From assembly GCA_030674875.1 (NCBI GenBank), contig JASXSU010000002.1:248001-312000 (forward strand): a stretch of DNA of 64,000 nt, written 5' to 3'. Under the pieces are notes generated by a model that saw only the letters and a list, made by a program, of their open reading frames with translations, did no database searches and was not told the DNA's origin. The position numbers were made by a program, and so were the translations under genes. Shown here piece by piece: positions 38,680-50,405 of the stretch. The DNA comes from Candidatus Endonucleibacter sp. (ex Gigantidas childressi). GTDB lineage: Bacteria > Pseudomonadota > Gammaproteobacteria > Pseudomonadales > Endozoicomonadaceae. Position 1 is the first letter of the stretch. The number at the start of each line of letters is the position of its first letter.

Positions 38680-40398
38680 TCATGGCGATACCGAATTGAA
38701 GATAATGGCTAGACACACTTCGTATCTTATGGCAGGTTCAGTAGAGATAAGTTGGTCTACGAAACTTTTCGAATCAATGTCTTTGAAAATAGGCCGGTTG
38801 TAATAACTCGTATTATTTTTACTGTAAGAAGACACTTCACCATAGAATTTACCAGGATTATTAACCATAATATCCCACAACTTACTCCCAATTTCAGAGC
38901 ACTTTTCGGTGATGACCTGCTCCCTCACTTGTTCTATGTATTGCGTTAGCTTTTCAAACTCTCTTGAATCATGATTTTTGAAGTAATAGCCTCCCCATGA
39001 CTGTACTGTATTGCTGTAAAATTGCTCTCTAGGACTTTCTTCATTTATCAACCCTTCTTTCTTCAAATGATCGATATGGGAATAAGATGATTTCAGTATG
39101 TCATCATTTTTTTTATATCTAATCTTTTTTTCTGAGAGAACAAGAAAGATGCCAACTACATGTTTAACTACGCCTAACTCAGTAAATTTCTTGTTTTCAA
39201 AATCATTTTTTACAGATTCATATAGCCTAGTGAATTCTTTTTCAGTTAATGTTTCGAAGAAATATAACTTTTCCCAATCATCTGTGGTTCTATAATACCT
39301 TGATTTCTCAAGGGACTCTTTTATTGTTTTCTTATCGCAGTAAGCCTTATCAAAAAAGTCACTCCATATCGCCTCATCAAGCAACAGGTCTGGAGATGAT
39401 ATGTCATATTTATTCAGTATGGTCTGAAGCTTTTTTGCTTCTTGCCCCTTGGGATCTTTTTTGAATCTTAGTTTATGACCATTCTCTGTAGCATAATCTC
39501 CTGTAGCTTTGTATATATCTTTCGGAAGCATTTCTCCGCTTTGTATCTCGTATGAGAGCATGGAAAATATTTTTAATAAATTACTCATTAGATCACTTTT
39601 TGTTTTAGCATCATCATTAACAAATGTTACGAATCTTTCGAAATCATAAAGAGTTTGTTTTAAACATCTGAGATTTTTATATTTTGATTTATTAAATACA
39701 TCTGATATGAGAATCTTATTTGATATATAGAGGTTTTTTACTTTATCATCATTAATTTCTTCTATAAAATCATCCAATATTCCTTGCAAGTCATGTTCTA
39801 TTTTAAAGGTTTTTCCTATGAGTTTTTCTTTAATCCTTCTATAAGAACACTTGGAGTTTTCATTGCTCTCTTGTTTGGTTAAGATCTCTTCCTCATTTGC
39901 TACGATTATTACTTTATATCCTTGATACTCTACATAGTGGTTTATATAACCAAGTAAACTTTCTATGTTTATAGTTGCCCTCTCAAGATCATCAAACACA
40001 ATGACGTATCCATCTGTCTTTGTAAGATACTCAGGAAGATCAATGCCACCACCGGGTATCTCATAGTTTAATGTAGTTTTTAGTGCAGCTTTCAGCACAC
40101 CTGCAGCAAGATTACCTACTACATTAAAGGTTTTTGATGAAAGCTTAGGGTGCAGTTGTTTGAAAAACTCATTTTCTATTTCATCAAACGAAGTTACTCC
40201 GTACAGACTTACATATAAATGTTTGATACTTTCATCTTCTTTACGGCTAGATTCTTTAAGAGATCTAAAAAATCGTTTAATAAACCACGTCTTTCCCGTC
40301 CCCCATTTACCTTTTAATAAAACTGCATAGCCAGGATCTCTATCGAGCGAACAGTAGTATTTTAAGAATTCTTCAACATGTGAGTTTTTGGAATTCAT
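38680..40398 (-). CDS. KAP-family P-loop ATPase, C-terminus frameshifted
   Basis: 572 residues as it stands. Walker A is G30-T37 (GKWGTGKT), Walker B YVIVFDDLERA around D136-D137. The start MNSKNSHVEEFLKYYCS and the DDLER motif place it in the KAP NTPase group, often found in bacterial accessory and defence regions; its action is unknown. After the TGA at 38680 the minus strand stays open in another frame to 38481, with coding-like sequence (EKWPAPEFEWLTTVNDLLKK, HQGKITGMQLQICSDHF). One frameshift near 38685-38700 has probably removed ~65 residues. AGGAG lies seven bases before ATG 40398. No partner gene is visible. Confidence 0.75.
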   Translation of the reverse strand: MNSKNSHVEEFLKYYCSLDRDPGYAVLLKGKWGTGKTWFIKRFFRSLKESSRKEDESIKHLYVSLYGVTSFDEIENEFFKQLHPKLSSKTFNVVGNLAAGVLKAALKTTLNYEIPGGGIDLPEYLTKTDGYVIVFDDLERATINIESLLGYINHYVEYQGYKVIIVANEEEILTKQESNENSKCSYRRIKEKLIGKTFKIEHDLQGILDDFIEEINDDKVKNLYISNKILISDVFNKSKYKNLRCLKQTLYDFERFVTFVNDDAKTKSDLMSNLLKIFSMLSYEIQSGEMLPKDIYKATGDYATENGHKLRFKKDPKGQEAKKLQTILNKYDISSPDLLLDEAIWSDFFDKAYCDKKTIKESLEKSRYYRTTDDWEKLYFFETLTEKEFTRLYESVKNDFENKKFTELGVVKHVVGIFLVLSEKKIRYKKNDDILKSSYSHIDHLKKEGLINEESPREQFYSNTVQSWGGYYFKNHDSREFEKLTQYIEQVREQVITEKCSEIGSKLWDIMVNNPGKFYGEVSSYSKNNTSYYNRPIFKDIDSKSFVDQLISTEPAIRYEVCLAIIFNSVSP

Positions 40399-41234: not shown

Positions 41235-41309
41235 GTATAACGTCTTGCATAACCGGAAATTTGCTAAGCGCAGCGTAGCGAATTGTCCGAGTCAATGCGT
41301 TTGTTATGT
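41235..41309 (-). other. attC-like recombination site of the sodN cassette
   Basis: On the minus strand: TAACAAACGCATTGACTCGG, an imperfect palindrome with TTCGCTACGCTGCGC at its tip, then CCGGTTATGCAAGACGTTA. The TAACAAACGC ... GTTA frame is typical of integron attC sites, and it lies just downstream of the gene's stop. Confidence 0.8.
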
Positions 41310-41314
41310 GGGTT

Positions 41315-41776
41315 TTAGTGTTTGTGCTCAGGGTAGTATGATGACAACGCCTCAATAGTTTTCTTTAAAGATGTCACATAGGAGATGTCAGCGTTTTGCT
41401 TAGCTTTCATCGCTGCAATGATTACCGAGTGGTGTTTTATTAAACGTTCAGAGTAGTCTTTTTGATTTGGTTGTACTCGTTGCGTCAGGAAGTAGTCGCT
41501 GATCGTAGAGATAATATTTTGTGCATGCTTTTCCTTGTTTACCACCCAGCGAACTATTTGGTTGTTGGATTGTGCATCAGTTTTGCCTGATAATTTAACG
41601 ATTAAAGTTACTGATTTTTCGATGGTTGCTACATCTTCAAGCATTGCCTGGACGCGAGAGTGGTCATCATAAATTCCGCACGGAATCTGGCAGTGCCCAT
41701 ACGCTTGATGTGGTAAGATGAAACCCATCATAATAAAAGTAATTGAAAACGCTATATCTCTGAGTTTTTTCATCAT
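41315..41776 (-). CDS. sodN: Nickel superoxide dismutase with Sec-type leader
   Basis: 153 residues. The nickel hook is HCQIPCGIYDD at residues 28-38, equivalent to His1, Cys2 and Cys6 of mature Ni-SOD. The rest is the expected four-helix Ni-SOD domain (LEDVATIEKSVTLI, WVVNKEKHAQNIISTISDYF). Residues 1-27 look like a Sec signal peptide (KK, a hydrophobic core, AYG before H28), so signal peptidase could expose the nickel-binding His. Typical Ni-SODs instead have a short pro-peptide cut by SodX, and none is in the window. Periplasmic location is inferred. First cassette of the array. Confidence 0.85.
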   Translation of the reverse strand: MMKKLRDIAFSITFIMMGFILPHQAYGHCQIPCGIYDDHSRVQAMLEDVATIEKSVTLIVKLSGKTDAQSNNQIVRWVVNKEKHAQNIISTISDYFLTQRVQPNQKDYSERLIKHHSVIIAAMKAKQNADISYVTSLKKTIEALSSYYPEHKH

Positions 41777-41831
41777 TATTTCCTTTCTTGGTTAGTTGGA
41801 CAAAAAATCTATTTTTTAAAAGTGGTACAAC

Positions 41832-41920
41832 ATATAATGCCTCGAATCACCCGCAAAATAAAGCTGTAGAGCGAAGCGGCGCAGCTTTATTTTGTCGGCG
41901 CGTATGCGTTTGTTAGCTGC
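41832..41920 (-). other. attC-like site of the barrel-protein cassette
   Basis: Minus strand: GCTAACAAACGCATACGCGC, palindromic arms AAAATAAAGCTG / CAGCTTTATTTT, then GGGTGATTCGAGGCATTATA. The last core reads ATTA instead of GTTA, a possible inactivating change. Confidence 0.75.
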
Positions 41921-41955
41921 TTTTTTTCCAACTGCAAGATGTCACGTATCATTCA

Positions 41956-42792
41956 CTATTTTGGAAACAGTAAGGTAAATAATAAACGCACACTTAGCCC
42001 TTCAGGGCCACCATCCGTACTTTCTGCCCAGTAACTTACGCCACCACCTACACTGACCCGCTGATTACCAAATTTCATGACTTTAGTTACTGTAACATTG
42101 ATTGGCACAACCCACTGTTCAGATTTCCAGTCATAGGTAGATTCAGTATTCAGTGCGAATGTCACGGCCTCCTTGGTTGTGTATAACAAAAAAGGTTGTA
42201 AGAAAGTAGCGCTTATATTCTGTCGGTCATCATCTCCTGCTACCGACCAGATATGGTTGGCCAGTACACCGTAGGTCCAGGGGCCATTTTGCTTAAGTGC
42301 AACGGCCGTGGGTCCAAGCCCCCATTTTTCTGCTCCAAGTAAATTATCGGCTGCTGTGGGCAATAAAAATACGGACCCAACACCCCATATCCAACCATCC
42401 TCTGTAGGTTGCTTGGGCGAAAAGAATACACTCTGTACCACATCCCCCAACCCCGATTGACTGCCCGTTCCGGGAAAGACATCATCCTGCGAAATGACCG
42501 GTAGAATAGTTCTAGAAATAATATTCCAGTCATCATTCAATGAAAAAGGAAGTACCGGCTGGATATTCAGCCGATAGCGATCACCCTTATCCTTTGGCCC
42601 AATGTTTGAATCGTAATTGAGTTGAAAAGGAACGCTGATCAATGATGCGACAGGGTTAGCTAATTTCTTAGCAAGCTCTTCACTACTTTGTGCGAATACA
42701 GTAGGCACTATAAATACCGATGAAATGATGAATATTTCAGTAATAGTTCTAAAAACGTTATAGGTTGCTTTGCTATTCAATTTATTCTCCAA
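41956..42792 (-). CDS. Outer-membrane beta-barrel protein (putative transporter)
   Basis: 278 residues with a signal peptide ending near VFAQS. Many short amphipathic strands and a terminal LSVRLLFTLLFPK fit an outer-membrane barrel. It resembles proteins annotated only as transporter or meta-pathway phenol-degradation-like: SLISVPFQLNYDSNIGP then NIQPVLPFSLNDDWNIISR are characteristic. Substrate unknown. Second cassette; attC-like site directly behind the stop codon. Confidence 0.75.
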   Translation of the reverse strand: MENKLNSKATYNVFRTITEIFIISSVFIVPTVFAQSSEELAKKLANPVASLISVPFQLNYDSNIGPKDKGDRYRLNIQPVLPFSLNDDWNIISRTILPVISQDDVFPGTGSQSGLGDVVQSVFFSPKQPTEDGWIWGVGSVFLLPTAADNLLGAEKWGLGPTAVALKQNGPWTYGVLANHIWSVAGDDDRQNISATFLQPFLLYTTKEAVTFALNTESTYDWKSEQWVVPINVTVTKVMKFGNQRVSVGGGVSYWAESTDGGPEGLSVRLLFTLLFPK

Positions 42793-42806
42793 GTTTTATT
42801 ATCTAC

Positions 42807-42904
42807 AGCTAACGCCTTGCTTAGCGGCAGTATAAAGTGGCACGTTTTTGCGAATTCAAAATAGGTGCCGCTTTAAACTGTCCGCTGGAGCTGTTTGTTA
42901 GCCG
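42807..42904 (-). other. attC-like site of the first amidohydrolase cassette
   Basis: Minus strand: GCTAACAAACAGCTCCAGCG, arms AGTTTAAAGCGGCAC / GTGCCACTTTATACT, then GCAAGGCGTTAGCT. Good attC layout. Confidence 0.8.
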
Positions 42905-42908
42905 TCCC

Positions 42909-44861
42909 TTATTTTCCCTGTATGGCCGCACTAGTTTGAAAAATGTAATTGGCGCTACACACACCCCCGTGATGTTTATGTTCTACTGTTGCTTCATATT
43001 TTGCCAACATTGCGATGTATTCTTGATTATTCAACGACGTCACAAGTCCTTTAGATGAACTTTTGATTGGGTGCACATTGCCCTCGAAAACAGTTCCCCA
43101 AATCACTATATCCTTTAATTTTTTAGGATCCGATGTAAGAGGGTTCTCTTCAAAAACTGTGAAGTTAGCTTTTTTTCCAATATCAATACTACCCATTTCA
43201 TTTTCCTTGCGGATAGCGTGTGCCGCATTGATTGTCACCGCACGAAAAGCTTCCTCTGATGTCACTTTTTCTTCAGGGCCAAGCGTTTTCGTCCCAGACA
43301 AACCTATGCGATTTACAGCAGCCCAAGCCAGTAGCATTGGCCGCGCAGGAGCCATCGGCGCATCAGAATGAAATGACAACTTAATGCCATTATCGATAAC
43401 TGTGCGGCCACGAGCCATGACTTCAGAGCGTTCGGAGCCTACCCCAACTTTACTATACTGCTCGGCAAGAACGTGAACGTAAAATGGGTTTGAACTGATT
43501 TCAGCGCCAAGTTGGGCAGCGCGTTTGACCTGTGCTCTCTCAGAGAAGGCAAAGTGATGGAATGCAAAACGATGATCATATCGCGGCGAGCTATGGAGCA
43601 AATCCTCTAGGGTATTCAGACCCAACTCCAACCCCATGTCGCCATTTTGATGCACTGTTAACTGGTAACCCTCTTCCCAGAAGGCCCGTGCACTTTTTGA
43701 AAAATCTTCTGGCGATTGAATCCATTCACCTTTATGCCCATCAAGGTAGCCCTCTTTCATTTGCATCAATTGAGAATAGACCGCACCGTCGGTGAATAGC
43801 TTGATCTGGTTGGGCAACCATTTAACATGCTCACCATTCAAATTTTTAGCTTGTTTACGAGCCGCCGCCACAGCTTTTTTTCCATCCTTTCCATTGGTAT
43901 CATAAAGCGTATTTCCCGCAGGAATGAGATAATAATCAAAGGGCATTGTTCCGCTTTCTAGGATTTGAATCATTTGGCGTATCATCGAATCTGACATTGC
44001 AACCCCTGGATCACTGGCCGCAGTAATGCCTCCAGCATGAATGTACTTTCGTGCACGCTCAAGACCTAGCTTAAATTTATCTGCTGAAGCGATAAGAGGA
44101 ACGACTTTATTGACCACAAGATACAAGCCTTTTTCCCAAACATGCCCTTTATCCCAATTAGCCATATCAGATGATTCGCCCTTACCCTGCCAGTCAGACT
44201 CTTTTATTCCTAGCATTTCTAAAGCCTTGGTATTGAAATAAAATTCATGAACAGAGCGTTGCCAAATAATAATTGGACGGGTGCTTGAGACTTTATCTAG
44301 TATTGTACGGCTCATTTTTCCATGAAAAGCGCTATGGTAACCCCAAGTGATGAGGGTTTCATTCGGGTCTTTTAACTCTGCATCAATCTCTTTTAATCGG
44401 TCGATATAGGCTTTTTCCCCAACCACTCCTTTTGCATTGCCCCAAGGCAGTTCCCAGTCGGCAGGAGTGATGAAATGCGTATTTGCGACATAGGCAAATA
44501 ACCAAAAATGCAAATGGGGATCAATAAGGCCAGGCGTAAGCGTTTTGTTTGCGAAGTCTCTATTAATAACCAAGCCTGGAGATTTATTGAAGCGTGCTAA
44601 TAGAGCGCCCTTTTCTCCTACGTCGATAATAAGGCCGTCACGAACAGCAACTGCCGTAACTGTTTTAATGGCGGGTGACATTGTCACAACTTCCTTGGCA
44701 ACAAAGATCGTGACTTGCGCCGATGAAGGTGAGAAAGTTTCATATAAACTCTGAATCGATTCGGCCGCGTATGCCCAAGAGGACATCACGACAGGAACAG
44801 CAAGGATTGCTAATAGCACGAGTGTCGGTGATTCAAGTTTACAACGCTTATTTTGTTTCAT
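42909..44861 (-). CDS. Exported YtcJ-like amidohydrolase
   Basis: 650 residues with an N-terminal signal peptide ending around SWAYA. Amidohydrolase superfamily, Amidohydro_3 type: the metal site starts with PGLIDPHLHF, later HQNGDMGLE and FHSDAPMAPARP supply further ligands. The family hydrolyses amide or ester bonds of varied small molecules; the substrate is unknown and the location should be periplasmic. At ~2.1 kb this is a very large integron cassette. The start codon is an ATG with few clues upstream. Confidence 0.85.
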   Translation of the reverse strand: MKQNKRCKLESPTLVLLAILAVPVVMSSWAYAAESIQSLYETFSPSSAQVTIFVAKEVVTMSPAIKTVTAVAVRDGLIIDVGEKGALLARFNKSPGLVINRDFANKTLTPGLIDPHLHFWLFAYVANTHFITPADWELPWGNAKGVVGEKAYIDRLKEIDAELKDPNETLITWGYHSAFHGKMSRTILDKVSSTRPIIIWQRSVHEFYFNTKALEMLGIKESDWQGKGESSDMANWDKGHVWEKGLYLVVNKVVPLIASADKFKLGLERARKYIHAGGITAASDPGVAMSDSMIRQMIQILESGTMPFDYYLIPAGNTLYDTNGKDGKKAVAAARKQAKNLNGEHVKWLPNQIKLFTDGAVYSQLMQMKEGYLDGHKGEWIQSPEDFSKSARAFWEEGYQLTVHQNGDMGLELGLNTLEDLLHSSPRYDHRFAFHHFAFSERAQVKRAAQLGAEISSNPFYVHVLAEQYSKVGVGSERSEVMARGRTVIDNGIKLSFHSDAPMAPARPMLLAWAAVNRIGLSGTKTLGPEEKVTSEEAFRAVTINAAHAIRKENEMGSIDIGKKANFTVFEENPLTSDPKKLKDIVIWGTVFEGNVHPIKSSSKGLVTSLNNQEYIAMLAKYEATVEHKHHGGVCSANYIFQTSAAIQGK

Positions 44862-44905
44862 CTTTAGTACTCCAGAAAGGGTAACATTCCCAGCCTATAT
44901 TCTTT

Positions 44906-45004
44906 GGCTAACGTCGTAAATCACCGGCTGCAAAAAGTGGCGCGGCTTTTGCGTAAGCAAAAAAGGCGTGCCACTTTTTTCAGTCCGCGTGAATTCTAGT
45001 TGGT
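44906..45004 (-). other. attC-like site of the methyltransferase cassette
   Basis: Minus strand: ACCAACTAGAATTCACGCGG, arms AAAAAAGTGGCACGCC / GGCGCGGCTTTTGC and CCACTTTTTGCAG, then TTTACGACGTTAGCC. The outer left core is diverged. Confidence 0.75.
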
Positions 45005-45031
45005 CGCCTGACTTGGTTCTCCTGACTTGGA

Positions 45032-45790
45032 TTAACAACTTTTGTACTGATGGCCTTTCAAGTGTGAGATTGGAGCCCCTTCATTGCAGACTGAAAATAA
45101 GGCTCTTAGATTTGAAGCGTCATCAGTACCACCTTGCGATTTGTCTATAATATGCCCGATATGTAGCCTTTTTTTCTCGATGAATCATATGGATGAGGCT
45201 CACCAGCAACCGCACCACACATTTTACAAGTAAAACCATTTCTGTCCAAGACAAAAGCCCTGGTTTCTTTTGATATGACTCTTTCGAAAGCAGGCTGCGG
45301 TTTCTGGTCATTGAGAATCTATTGACCTGGCTTTAAGTCACTACGCTTATTGTGGGTTTGAATTTTATAACTGACATTTTCTTTTCAAGCAATTCACCAA
45401 CAGTCAATGGATTGCATCCATGGCTCTGTGGCCATGAAAATTGCTCAGAAAGGTAATTTCTGATAGCCACAATAACTACTCGGGGACGAAGTTGAGATAC
45501 ACCATAATCTGAAGCGTTAAGTAAACGCCATTCAGCTTTATACCCGTCGCCTTTCAAGTTGCTACGTTGTCGGCTGCATTCACTCACCCCGATCACCTAC
45601 TACTCGTAGGCTCACGGGTCTTCGCTTACTTGCTGCCTAGTAGCAATTTGAAATGCTTTGGGTATATATCCCATTTTTTTCTAATTGTTTTTTTAAATTT
45701 AGCCGGTAATCTTCAAAAACCGCGTCAAGAAACCCTCTTACATTTTCGAGCATAACTGCACGCGGTTTAATCTCATTTGATGGAGTAAAT
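45032..45790 (-). pseudogene. Decayed DNA cytosine-5 methyltransferase with HNH nuclease relic
   Basis: Minus strand from 45790: KPRAVMLENVRGFLDAVF is motif IV (ENV) of cytosine-5 methyltransferases. A 124-bp element interrupts it, then ASDYGVSQLRPRVVIVAIR is motif VIII (Q-R-R). The PCQ motif, the target-recognition part and motifs IX-X are missing. Behind a stop, another frame gives RAFVLDRNGFTCKMCGAVAG, and after a frameshift in a run of A, RLHIGHIIDKSQGGTDDASN and ALFSVCNEGAPI. This is an HNH nuclease with paired Cys, as in restriction enzymes. Together a dead restriction-modification pair. Confidence 0.75.
45541..45664. repeat. 124-bp palindromic element, type A, in the methyltransferase relic
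   Basis: TACCCGTCGCCTTTCAAGTT to TTGAAATGCTTTGGGTA with TA on both sides; the methyltransferase sequence continues across it. Confidence 0.93.
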
Positions 45791-45883
45791 AATGGAGTAT
45801 TCTCTCTACCTTTAAAGTATTTTAAAAAACTCTTTGATTATATTAATTATTCAGAATTTTAATAGAGTATGAGGCATGTGAAC

Positions 45884-45969
45884 ACCTAACGTTGCAAATC
45901 ACCGGAAACAAAAAGCAGAATGAGGAACGAGCTGCGCTTTTTGCTGTCCGAGTGCATTTGCCTTGTTAG
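45884..45969 (-). other. attC-like site of the second amidohydrolase cassette
   Basis: Minus strand: TCTAACAAGGCAAATGCACT, arms AGCAAAAAGCGCAG / CTGCTTTTTGTTTCCGG, then TGATTTGCAACGTTAGGT. GTTAGGT fits the GTTRRRY core exactly. Confidence 0.85.
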
Positions 45970-45999
45970 AACTCAGATGCGAGATGTGCGTGCATCTGC

Positions 46000-47703
46000 T
46001 CACGGCTCTCGTCTGTAAATAGTCTTTCCTTCTTTGATGGTCTCCAGCACGATGATCGTATTGATCTTAGTCGGAGCGACCGTGAGCGGATTGTCAGAGA
46101 GAACAACCATGTCTGCCAATTTACCTTTCTCAAGCGAGCCTTTTTCGGCCTGTTCACCGAACTGCTCGGCACTCCAAAGAGTAATCATCTTCATAGCTTC
46201 AAGCGGGGTCACCCGCTCGTCTGGACCGATAACCTTTCCAGATCGTGAAGTACGATTCACTGTTGCCCACACAACCTGCATAAGATTGGGAAGAGCTACC
46301 GGTGCGTCGGTATGGCTAGTTGCGTGCAATCCCGTGTTCAGAATTGAGCGCATAGGTGAAATCCTGGCAGCCTGCTCTGGGCCGACGATATCCATATACC
46401 AGTCGCCCCAATAGAATGTGTGCATCGGGAACATCGACGGAAAGATACCAAGTGATTTCAACTTTTGAACCTGGTCTTGCCGGATAAACTGGCCATGTAT
46501 GAGGATAACACCACCTGGCTTGACGCCATATTTAGCGACAACCGGCTGTAATGCTTGGAACAGCTGATCAATAGCAGCATCACCATTGGCATGCACTTTG
46601 ACCGGCCAGCCCTTAGCGTACGCTTCATCGAGATAGGCTTCTACCTCTTTTGTGTCTGGAATGGCAGGGTAGCCTTTGTAGCCAGGCTCCTGCCCATCAG
46701 GCGGCAACAGATAGGCTTCAGTACGCCAAGCAGTACGGCCTTGGGGTGAACCATCGAGCGTAACTTTAAGGCCTGCAAGTCGATAGCGGTCACGGTAAAC
46801 CTTGGAAAAATTACGATCAAGTTCTGCTTTGTTGGAGTAGTCCATCCACCCTGTGATATCGATATCGACAAGGCCGCGGCTGGCTGCATTTTCCATGTCA
46901 GCACTCATACTACCGAACATGCGGCCCTCATTCGCGGAGGTATAGCCATAGCTCTTCGCCATCGCAAGGCCGCGCTTCAGAAAGACATCTTTTCCTTCCT
47001 GCGTGGTAGGCGCAAGAAATTTCACCATGTAGGGCATAGCAGCAAGCTCTTCAAGAACTCCGTTGGGAGTCTTACCATCTGGCTCGCGTCGGATTATGCC
47101 GCCCTCGGGGTTAGGAGTACTGCCATCGAAACCGATCAGCTTCAAACCTAAAGTATTAACTGCCGCGAAATGAGCAGAGATGTGCGTGGCCATCACAGGA
47201 ACTGTTGTCGAGACCTTATCGAGATCCTCTCGCGTGGGGTGACGCCCGAGCAGAGCATCATCGTAACCTATGCCAAAAATCCAGCCGTTGAGGTCTACAT
47301 CCGGACTGGTGGCGAATGTCTTTAGCCTATCAACTAGATCATCAATGGTATTAACGGTACCATCTGGCGGAGCTAGTAAGTTGGCACCGACTGCCTGGGT
47401 GCCGAACTGTTGAACATGCTCATGGCCATCTATGAATCCAGGCATCAAAGTCTTGCCGCCAAGACTCACCACCTTTGTAATATCTCTCTTATGGGCCTTT
47501 TCGATAGAAGCCCTTGAACCGACTGCCAGAATGACCCCATCCTTAATCGCTAAAGCTTCAGCGTTTGGCTGCGCATCATTCATAGTGACGATGTTGCCGC
47601 CAACATATATAGCATCAGCCACGACCATCGGATCGGAGGGACTGCATCCTAATAATGCAAGTGAGAGGGCCGTAACTGTAAAAAATGTTCTTATGGATTG
47701 CAT
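46000..47703 (-). CDS. YtcJ-like amidohydrolase lipoprotein
   Basis: 567 residues. LALLGC near residue 20 is a lipobox, so the enzyme is probably lipid-anchored. Amidohydro_3 features: MPGFIDGHEHVQQFG (first metal ligands), KVHANGDAAIDQL and SHTDAPVALPN. A distant relative of the 650-residue enzyme at 42909, not a duplicate: leader type, length and sequence differ. The DNA looks more GC-rich than the flanking AT-rich genes, in keeping with an imported cassette. Substrate unknown. Confidence 0.85.
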   Translation of the reverse strand: MQSIRTFFTVTALSLALLGCSPSDPMVVADAIYVGGNIVTMNDAQPNAEALAIKDGVILAVGSRASIEKAHKRDITKVVSLGGKTLMPGFIDGHEHVQQFGTQAVGANLLAPPDGTVNTIDDLVDRLKTFATSPDVDLNGWIFGIGYDDALLGRHPTREDLDKVSTTVPVMATHISAHFAAVNTLGLKLIGFDGSTPNPEGGIIRREPDGKTPNGVLEELAAMPYMVKFLAPTTQEGKDVFLKRGLAMAKSYGYTSANEGRMFGSMSADMENAASRGLVDIDITGWMDYSNKAELDRNFSKVYRDRYRLAGLKVTLDGSPQGRTAWRTEAYLLPPDGQEPGYKGYPAIPDTKEVEAYLDEAYAKGWPVKVHANGDAAIDQLFQALQPVVAKYGVKPGGVILIHGQFIRQDQVQKLKSLGIFPSMFPMHTFYWGDWYMDIVGPEQAARISPMRSILNTGLHATSHTDAPVALPNLMQVVWATVNRTSRSGKVIGPDERVTPLEAMKMITLWSAEQFGEQAEKGSLEKGKLADMVVLSDNPLTVAPTKINTIIVLETIKEGKTIYRREP

Positions 47704-47735
47704 TGGTAGTTATTTCCTGTATTTGCACAACTAAG

Positions 47736-47742
47736 GTCTAAC
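47736..47742 (-). other. Possible upstream recombination core of the array
   Basis: Minus strand GTTAGAC, a perfect GTTRRRY core, 33 bp before the start of the last amidohydrolase. It would be the 5' boundary of that cassette; no palindrome or attI is visible beyond it. Confidence 0.35.
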
Positions 47743-47971
47743 AGTATTATTATTAGGGAACTTTCTTTCTAATTCCTTGAAAAGTTTTCGCCTATTTGCA
47801 TTTCAGCGCTTTGAATTTTACTGGCAATCACTAATAAAAACAACAAGTTATCGGGATATTATAGGTTCTGGCCTAGATAAAATCAGGAAAGATTCCTGTC
47901 TAATTCTTGCTTAGTCAGGAAGCCTTCTTTATAATTCCACGAAAAGATTCCGCCTATCTGCATTTTAATAT

Positions 47972-48553
47972 TTTGTAGCAGTTTCTACCAATTAATTAGG
48001 CTCCGTATGCATTCCCACGCTGGAGCGTTGGAACGAGAAAATATAGATTCGATGGCAACTAGAACCTGTGTGAACGATCCAGCAGGAAGAACATCACCAT
48101 AACCAAGTGTAGTTATTGTGACTGGATTACTCGATTCATTAAATTTTATAAATTGATAAGTACGATCATCATTTGCGATTACTGCGGTTACTGCGCTCTG
48201 CGGATACACGACATCGCCATGTGTATGGTCAGCTGCAGCATTGATACGCTACCGCCCAAAGGTTGTGCCACTGTCTTTTATTGGCAGTGGGTAGCATAGT
48301 CCTCGATAGCTATAACTGAATTTTTGTGAGTAGGATAAAAGTGCTCTATATGTAGTGCTTTGTCTAGAACAAGGAGAGTTGAATGGCATTGCAGGCTATG
48401 AGTTGTCTGGACTCATTGCTCAATAGAGAGAAAGATTAATCATGTGGGGTTGTTGATTGCCATTACTAGCCCCAATTGTCACTACTCGTAGGCTAATACG
48501 TAAATTGAGTTGATTCTTCAGGCTTTATAATCACAAATAAGGGTTGACTATAC
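47972..48553. repeat. ~580-bp direct repeat, left copy, with potassium-channel fragment
   Basis: Runs from TTTTGTAGCAGTTTCTACC to CAAATAAGGGTTGACTATA and is almost identical to 52551-53132. It contains a minus-strand fragment (47985 to ~48245) with the channel filter TITTLGYGDV, preceded by the ordered frame INAAADHTHGDVVYPQSAV. It is truncated at both ends, hence a relic. A CTCGTTCCCACGC palindrome lies inside. Confidence 0.85.
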
Positions 48554-48587: not shown

Positions 48588-50405
48588 CTAAATAATAGTA
48601 TGAATATTTCTTATTCTTTGTAATATTTTATTCTCTGACGCCTTTAGCATATCCGCATCTGTTAATACACCTTCAATAGGTTTAGTAAAATAATTATCAC
48701 CAAACATTAAAATAAAGTCTTTTGAAAAACCTTTACTGTAAATTAACTTTAATATTTCATCATCGGTCATCAAAGGATCGTCTTGTTGCATGTGATTAAT
48801 TACAAGCATTAAATGAATTAACTCCAATGTTGCAATTTGATCTTCTGTTTCAACAGAAATAGCACGTGTTAAGTTATGCTCTTCGTTACTTCTTATACTG
48901 TCTATTATGCCGGCTATAAATGCAGTTGTTTTAACACCATGATTAAGGTGCGTAAAAGTACCATTATGCTGTAAGACATTATGACTCCTGTCGAAACTAT
49001 TGATATCTTTTTTATCTGATTCAGACAATAATTTAAACTCATCAATTAATTTCAACATTGCTAGACATGTGCCAGTTCTACCTTCTCCAGCACCACACGA
49101 TATCATTACTGTTTTAGGTCTATTCTTAGTTGTTGACCTACTGTTTTTTAGATTATTAAGTATGATTTCGTAATGTTCAAGTCGTGGATAGGCAAAATCT
49201 ATAATCGGTAATGATTTCACTTGTGTAAGACGATATTGGTTATTGCCAGAACAATTTTTTATTTGTTCTAACTTTTCTTTATTGTCAGAAAATGGAATTA
49301 AAAGGATCAATGAATCAACATTCTGATAGACAAAGTCCAATGGATTCTTGTGCTCTGATTTATCTTCAGGATCACAAAAAGAAGATGAGCATCCAATTAC
49401 ATTAATAGAACCATCCTTCGTTAAAAATGTGCGTTTGTTTTTGAAGTCGCATTGATCAAAAGATTCAAGAAACTCATCTTGAGTTTTAGGTTGCGTTTTT
49501 TTATAATAAGATTCCGATAACGTTTTTTCTACTTGAGGTGTTAGTGCATCTTTATTGACTATGTCAATATATGATTCTCCATCGAGGTCAGGGGCATAAA
49601 ATGTGACATGATCATTATTGCCATCCATAAAGATATCCTTAAAATAGGATAACTCTTTATATAAGTGAGTAGCCTTTCCTGATGATGTTTTTTCAACTAT
49701 GATATCGCAATTAAACTTACTTATTAACATACGCATACCTGCTGTCATATGCGTCATATCAAGTCCCTGGATATCTATTTTTTCTAATGTGCTAAAAGTA
49801 TAAAGACACTCAGGAAAAGCTGAGAATTTATTACCTATAATCTCAACTTCACGTAGTGATTTTATATGTGTAATTGCTGATGGTAAAGTAGTCAAATCTA
49901 GAAAATTTAGATTTATAGTCTCGTCATTATTTTCAAACGCATGTATCATCAACTCTTGAGCTTTTATTCTTTTCTCGTCACTACCAGCTTGTTCAACCCA
50001 TTCATTTAGCTCTCTATAGAAGCATGAGGTTTGTTCATCAGTAATATCATTTTTAATACTTGGTGATATTTCTTCACAGTCAAGATCATACGTTTCTCCA
50101 GTGTATATTAAGTCCGCTATTTTTTTTGCGCAATCCTCTGGTTTTTTATCATATGACGATAACAGGTTTTTTTTATTTTTTTTGGACATTCTAATAAAAG
50201 AACATAACCTGTTTAAGATTTGAATATCTGTCATGTTATTATTTTCTAAAGAATATTTAAATTTATTACTTATTTGATCCGAATAACTAATAACTGTTCT
50301 ATTCTTGAACTTGCCTGTTGTGAGTGTATCTGGCTTAACATTTGGTTCATCACTCATTTTAGACTGTAAACATAATAAAAGATTAGTTTGGAGCTCTGTT
50401 TTCAT
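48588..50405 (-). CDS. LRR plus protein tyrosine phosphatase, effector-like
   Basis: 605 residues. Residues ~130-215 resemble the cap and leucine-rich repeats of IpaH/SspH-type effectors: LNEWVEQAGSDEKRIKAQEL, then LDLTTLPSAITHIKSLREVE and AFPECLYTFSTLEKIDIQG. Residues ~320-555 form a tyrosine-phosphatase-like domain; the P-loop CGAGEGRT supplies the nucleophile C437 and R443, with ETEDQIATLELI as a possible Q-loop. No NEL ubiquitin-ligase domain is seen. No Sec signal; it probably needs a specialised secretion route. The substrate is unknown. AGGAT precedes ATG 50405. AT-rich and alone between two ~580-bp direct repeats. Confidence 0.75.
   Translation of the reverse strand: MKTELQTNLLLCLQSKMSDEPNVKPDTLTTGKFKNRTVISYSDQISNKFKYSLENNNMTDIQILNRLCSFIRMSKKNKKNLLSSYDKKPEDCAKKIADLIYTGETYDLDCEEISPSIKNDITDEQTSCFYRELNEWVEQAGSDEKRIKAQELMIHAFENNDETINLNFLDLTTLPSAITHIKSLREVEIIGNKFSAFPECLYTFSTLEKIDIQGLDMTHMTAGMRMLISKFNCDIIVEKTSSGKATHLYKELSYFKDIFMDGNNDHVTFYAPDLDGESYIDIVNKDALTPQVEKTLSESYYKKTQPKTQDEFLESFDQCDFKNKRTFLTKDGSINVIGCSSSFCDPEDKSEHKNPLDFVYQNVDSLILLIPFSDNKEKLEQIKNCSGNNQYRLTQVKSLPIIDFAYPRLEHYEIILNNLKNSRSTTKNRPKTVMISCGAGEGRTGTCLAMLKLIDEFKLLSESDKKDINSFDRSHNVLQHNGTFTHLNHGVKTTAFIAGIIDSIRSNEEHNLTRAISVETEDQIATLELIHLMLVINHMQQDDPLMTDDEILKLIYSKGFSKDFILMFGDNYFTKPIEGVLTDADMLKASENKILQRIRNIHTII

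Follow-up and report, generated by a model that had tools for sequence, protein, structure and literature searches.

The DNA analysed here, referred to as the window, is a stretch of 64 kb (C2:248001-312000, i.e., positions 248001-312000 of contig C2) from the genome of Candidatus Endonucleibacter sp. (ex Gigantidas childressi), which comprises 3.68 Mb in 12 contigs and is 98.75% complete. On its minus strand the window carries an integron array in which five cassettes, each ending in a recombination site (attC), follow a copy of the integron attachment site (attI), and no integron-integrase gene (intI) lies within the 64 kb. We consider it somewhat probable (about 0.58) that this array is one of several platforms without intI, each made up of an attI copy and attC-bounded cassettes, which were served in trans.

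The attC sites were identified with a covariance model, R2, trained on 21 sites from other genomes and on no window sequence (nine sites from Thalassomonas, seven from two Vibrio, four from the sister genome G001 and one from a genome of the same order). It was built from other genomes so that the sites under test would not be among those it had been trained on. The 21 training sites had themselves been chosen and aligned using another model, R1, whose training set contained four of the five window sites and which likewise recovers all five. Using default filters, R2 found five attC sites in the 64 kb. Each of them lies on the minus strand and inside the stretch 41235-47742, for which an earlier note made from the sequence had proposed an integron cassette array. 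E values range from 1.8e-7 to 0.053, and with these filters neither strand gave a further match up to E=10. None of the proposed sites was rejected, and the proposal stands. A search of the window with Rfam returned only three tRNAs at gathering scores. The recombination sites of the array are, in reading direction:

47911-47975, minus strand: partial second attI in tandem, 83% identical over 65 bp to attI positions 18-81
47738-47923, minus strand: attI copy at the array head, assigned by homology, with the crossover core TAACAG at its cassette-side edge
45886-45969, minus strand: attC of the first cassette (R2 38.8 bits, E 2.5e-6)
44908-45003, minus strand: attC of the second cassette, the weakest (R2 19.2 bits, E 0.053)
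42809-42901, minus strand: attC of the third cassette (R2 44.0 bits, E 1.8e-7)
41834-41916, minus strand: attC of the fourth cassette, with a crossover ATT instead of GTT (R2 26.3 bits, E 0.0015)
41237-41307, minus strand: attC of the fifth cassette, the last one found (R2 35.7 bits, E 1.2e-5)

For four of the five sites the gap to the gene is 7, 39, 7 and 30 bp in ascending coordinate order, and to this extent the claim that each gene is followed by attC within ~35 bp holds; it does not for the site at 44908-45003, which is separated by 329 bp from a fragment of 87 aa that matches a C5-methylase in part. Measured from site to site, the cassettes span ~0.60, 0.98, 2.10, 0.98 and 1.85 kb in ascending order. 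The two large cassettes of 1.85 and 2.1 kb thus have the lengths claimed for them, but size is not the special point of this array, as had been suggested, because longer att-to-att stretches occur in the same genome. About 8 kb separate two attC sites at L006:2438-10425 (C2:64.4-72.4 kb), a cassette-like stretch that holds a restriction system, with HsdM, HsdR and a RhuM/Fic protein, and the longest span from an attI to an attC is 4.8 kb, a transposase included. Among 24 attC sites of the genome, mean pairwise identity is 59%, so that they are heterogeneous. Genome-wide attC counts are lower bounds, given that scoring covered 150 candidates out of 487 in one search and 150 out of 651 in another, and one genome-wide search overlooked two array sites found otherwise (L006:1077 and L006:12243).

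At the head of the array, the window matches the DNA between a broken intI and its first cassette with 77% identity over 186 bp (E 7.8e-35). The window attI is thus a putative one, assigned by homology, and the array properly extends to about 47975, attI copies included. The broken intI is the one match to the integron-integrase family above the cut-off in the genome. It lies at C2:76370-77089 on the same contig, 212 kb from the array. The absence of intI from the window, also noted earlier, is confirmed. The gene contains an internal TGA and matches positions 1-239 of the 315 of the family model, the last quarter of which is unmatched. Four weaker matches fall on parts of two frames, each 313-314 aa long, which are probably Xer-type recombinases; similar matches below the cut-off were obtained from all 14 control genomes. 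With at least two clustered attC sites (five by R2) and no integron-integrase nearby, the window locus is a cluster of attC sites lacking integron-integrases (CALIN) by the published definition. No intact intI stands beside its attI, as would be expected of a complete integron, whereas an attI at the array head is present, as judged by homology. It is an attI-headed CALIN and one of eight such platforms.

Eight near-complete copies of the attI unit (~210 bp, homologous over 186-210 bp) were found in the genome, seven of them without intI. Near-complete means covering query positions 5-17 to 213 of 236, with the window copy covering 10-194. Besides the copy in the window, the attI copies are:

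C2:76 kb: near-complete, beside the broken intI
C2:419963, minus strand: near-complete
C3:370948: near-complete
C3:745456: near-complete
C3:747194: near-complete
C3:749447: near-complete
C3:897429: near-complete
C1:704446, C1:1454467 and C3:467198: partial copies

The edge of the homology is the crossover core, and the DNA beyond the core is unrelated between copies. Over the 28 pairs of the eight copies, mean pairwise identity is 0.96 for the 20 bases next to the edge on its inner side versus 0.27 at positions -20 to -9 outside it. Departures at the edge are a changed core in C3:745 and a different sequence in the C2:420 copy, where a frame with an rve (transposase-type) domain starts ~0.2 kb past the edge. 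All eight near-complete copies reach, in cassette direction, an attC on the right strand within 0.4-4.8 kb, while an attC within 5 kb is expected by chance for ~1.1% of the position-strand space. This estimate uses a hand-compiled list of 26 attC sites, from which weak ones such as C3:542863 and C1:1383308 were dropped and in which C3:370470 was kept though it came only from a targeted search.

The ~210-bp unit might instead be a small mobile repeat, or a leader lying by chance beside cassettes, rather than attI. Its many copies, the short palindromes (GGAAASTTTCC-like) at three fixed places within it and the adjoining insertion sequence-like (IS-like) repeats would fit such an origin; apart from the rve domain at C2:420 kb, gene labels given to short repeats (IS-like, Xer-like) are our own reading. 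A repeat of this kind is nevertheless improbable, as its edge coincides with the crossover core, every near-complete copy leads to an attC on the right strand, and it occupies the place of attI beside intI. A plasmid- or phage-borne origin of the repeat was rejected, since 72,556 plasmid and 50,697 phage records gave 0 matches at E 0.01. Far less probable still is the insertion of cassettes at unrelated genomic attG sites. Insertion at attG and CALINs far from intI have both been described, as far as the accessible text of PMC12901181 and PMC12444791 goes, but insertion here was at a homologue of the genome's own attI, 186-210 bp long, and not at a short degenerate site. For the eight attI loci this explanation is largely refuted; isolated attC sites such as C3:1114817, around which no attI match was found within 15 kb, are compatible with it.

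The history of the copies can be read from their flanks. Six of the seven copies without intI have their intI-side junction in common, the window copy being the exception, and therefore the unit that was copied most likely already lacked intI. Three units stand in tandem on C3. On the distal side, C3:745 and C3:749 share 1007 bp at 95.9% identity, ending within the attC core; on the attI side they share 952 bp at 93.4% identity, starting within ~10 nt of the core, and the DNA between the two crossover points is unrelated. Besides other frames, C3:745 carries a candidate defence protein (PADLOC PDC-M49A), and C3:749 carries a PIN7 nuclease. Since the two units share their flanks but differ in cargo, the cargo was most likely changed later, at the crossover points. 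Such a change, by insertion or by selective excision, would need an integrase supplied from another locus. In C3:747, the third tandem unit, the cargo is a further PIN7 protein, 27% identical. Copies also exchanged sequence, because C3:897 (L011:1501-2301, C3:897.4-898.2 kb) joins an attI 95% identical to the intI-adjacent one to downstream DNA 89-91% identical to that of other copies; this mosaic is perhaps a product of gene conversion.

Following the reading favoured here, the attI copies would have recombined, with an integrase encoded elsewhere inserting cassettes at them, or excising different ones, in trans. The only integrase candidate found for this role is the broken intI at C2:76.35-77.09 kb. 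The copied attI unit would by then have lost intI and may have been multiplied by duplication or dispersed through rearrangement at IS-like repeats, and the arrays would now be frozen. The chances are about even that the genome held a distributed integron in the full sense. In it, at least eight attI sites dispersed over the genome would have depended on a single integrase, attI lacking intI would have multiplied as a landing site, and every copy would have taken up cargo of its own, be it restriction-modification systems, OLD/AAA ATPases, PIN nucleases, hydrolases or nickel superoxide dismutase (Ni-SOD), with the arrays freezing once the integrase died. Observed cargo of the other platforms comprises OLD/AAA ATPases, the HsdM, HsdR and RhuM/Fic proteins of the 8-kb stretch, PIN7 nucleases, a peroxidase, and a C5-methylase together with an MvaI/BcnI-type restriction enzyme.

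Integron-integrase matches at E 1e-40 or better occur in 38 of 57 genomes, the genome's own included. The attI DNA was not found in the 56 other genomes, in some of which only the best candidates were scored. The broken intI was compared with integrases from 12 loci of this search, from two G001 regions and from five named loci, which make up a part of all integrases found. Its closest relatives among these are from Thalassomonas (57% identity), Thalassotalea (55%) and Vibrio europaeus (54%), with a range of 51-57% over the Thalassomonas, Thalassotalea and Vibrio integrases, whereas the two G001 integrases reach 39-42% over the aligned part. Inheritance of intI with the genus is not supported, as the G001 copies are more distant than those of the three other genera. 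The attI of four G001 loci, of Thalassomonas and of V. europaeus start with the TAACAG seen in the present genome.

Several observations weigh against service in trans. One of them comes from G001, which has two intact intI genes and, in addition, two attI followed by intI remnants (residues 1-42 and 3-80), one of these attI having an attC 1.5 kb away. These loci are the main support for independent decay, in which each platform was once a complete integron and lost its own intI separately after its cassettes were in place, with no action in trans. Decayed integrons are also the origin proposed for CALINs in the accessible text of PMC9024848. For the present genome we consider independent decay unlikely, though more credible than the other alternatives: tblastn found no intI remnant beside the seven other attI copies, and the intI-free junction shared by six of seven places the loss of intI before the copying, after which C3:745 and C3:749 came to differ in cargo. 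Further points on the unfavourable side concern single loci. Among the copies, the window attI has diverged most, and on the intI side its junction differs from the others; the distal homology of C3:747 ends 43 bp before the attC and not at the core, leaving no double boundary; and the attC beside C3:370948 comes from the targeted search only (20.7 bits, E 0.0095). Around each of the three partial attI copies, no attC was found in the 15-16 kb searched, which is compatible with a repeat other than attI, and V. sinaloensis shows no TAACAG at the expected place upstream of intI. A cassette promoter within attI was likewise looked for, and none stands out: the window attI has 3 promoter-like matches versus 1.2 (standard deviation 1.0) in shuffled sequences and the intI-adjacent attI has 2 versus 1.0 (standard deviation 1.1).

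Platforms without intI resemble several known systems. Like a CALIN, the window array has two or more attC sites and no nearby intI, with the integrase gene elsewhere in the genome, but it is headed by an attI copy. Outside class 1 integrons, attI is poorly described and is not detected by IntegronFinder, according to the available part of PMC9024848. A sedentary chromosomal integron would likewise have attI, chromosome-like contigs, diverse cassettes and intI at one locus; here, however, attI occurs at eight places, intI is broken and the attC sites are ~59% alike on average. Insertion at attG (Loot et al. 2024, as cited in the accessible text of PMC12444791 and PMC12901181) also places cassettes away from the primary integron, whereas the target here is a long attI homologue. 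Delta-attI cassettes, in the part of PMC12901181 available to us, similarly bring attI sequence away from intI, in pieces mostly of 14-18 nt, one reaching to -238, which replace the attC behind a gene; the window locus differs in having nearly the whole attI in front of an array. Xanthomonas CALINs away from ilvD also amount to several integrase-less arrays per genome, with the integrase partly lost in the genus, and the accessible text of PMC12444791 describes no attI copies at those loci. Among the papers listed by searches of the open-licence literature, as far as their accessible text goes, we found no description of near-whole attI copies heading several intI-less arrays in a genome.

The cassette genes of the window array are:

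46000-47703, minus strand: first cassette, Amidohydro_3 hydrolase of 567 aa (Pfam PF07969, 318.8 bits)
45333-45596, minus strand: second cassette, C5-cytosine DNA methylase fragment of 87 aa (PF00145, 45.0 bits, profile positions 129-196 of 324)
42909-44861, minus strand: third cassette, Amidohydro_3 hydrolase of 650 aa (Pfam PF07969, 176.9 bits)
41956-42792, minus strand: fourth cassette, open frame of 278 aa without a family (no Pfam match at 0.001)
41315-41776, minus strand: fifth cassette, Ni-SOD of 153 aa (Pfam PF09055, 126.4 bits)

The two hydrolases are 27% identical, and the second cassette is a decayed methylase cassette. The first hydrolase is the one cassette protein that was compared with relatives; proteins matching it at E 1e-60 or better (32-48% identity) occur in 10 of 53 other genomes, and identity within its genus is 34%. 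These matches and the heterogeneity of the attC sites bear out, in part, the capture of foreign cassettes that the earlier note had suggested. The idea that relatives of the hydrolase are carried as cassettes elsewhere was rejected, as five short loci surrounding such relatives gave no attC with R2 at E 1. The hydrophobic N-terminus of Ni-SOD stops right before HCQIPCGIY, which we take to resemble the nickel hook, as if the metal site were created by export processing.

Other features were noted around the array and elsewhere. A 605-aa protein adjoining the array head (48588-50405, minus strand) has a weak DSP-PTPase-type domain (PTP-SAK, 29.6 bits versus a cut-off of 27). To the left of the array, past an IS-like remnant, lies a KAP-family P-loop NTPase (38680-40398, minus strand), beside which no attC was found. 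A repeat of ~240 bp, IS-like by our reading, occurs at several places in window positions 20226-50765; six window stretches match it, and 34 of the 40 matches scored cover only this part. Copies of attI-flanking DNA without attI are present at L052:8318-8977 and L042:4353-8848, each with an attC-like site nearby that lies in the direction expected of one (E 0.3 at 15.9 bits and E 0.0015 at 25.8 bits, respectively), and are perhaps the remains of further platforms. A protein of 721 aa, encoded at L040:8169-10334 (C3:563-565 kb) beside an isolated attC at L040:7524-7605, has a MIEAP C-terminal domain (64.7 bits).

Integrons typically have one attI close to the integrase, and integrase-less arrays have been proposed to be degraded integrons (PMC9024848, accessible text). 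If attI units without intI can multiply and be loaded in trans, a genome would not be restricted to a single first-cassette position, and some CALINs would not be remnants but secondary platforms. The sister genome G001, which has two attI in addition to its two intact integrases, would be a place to look for such loading.

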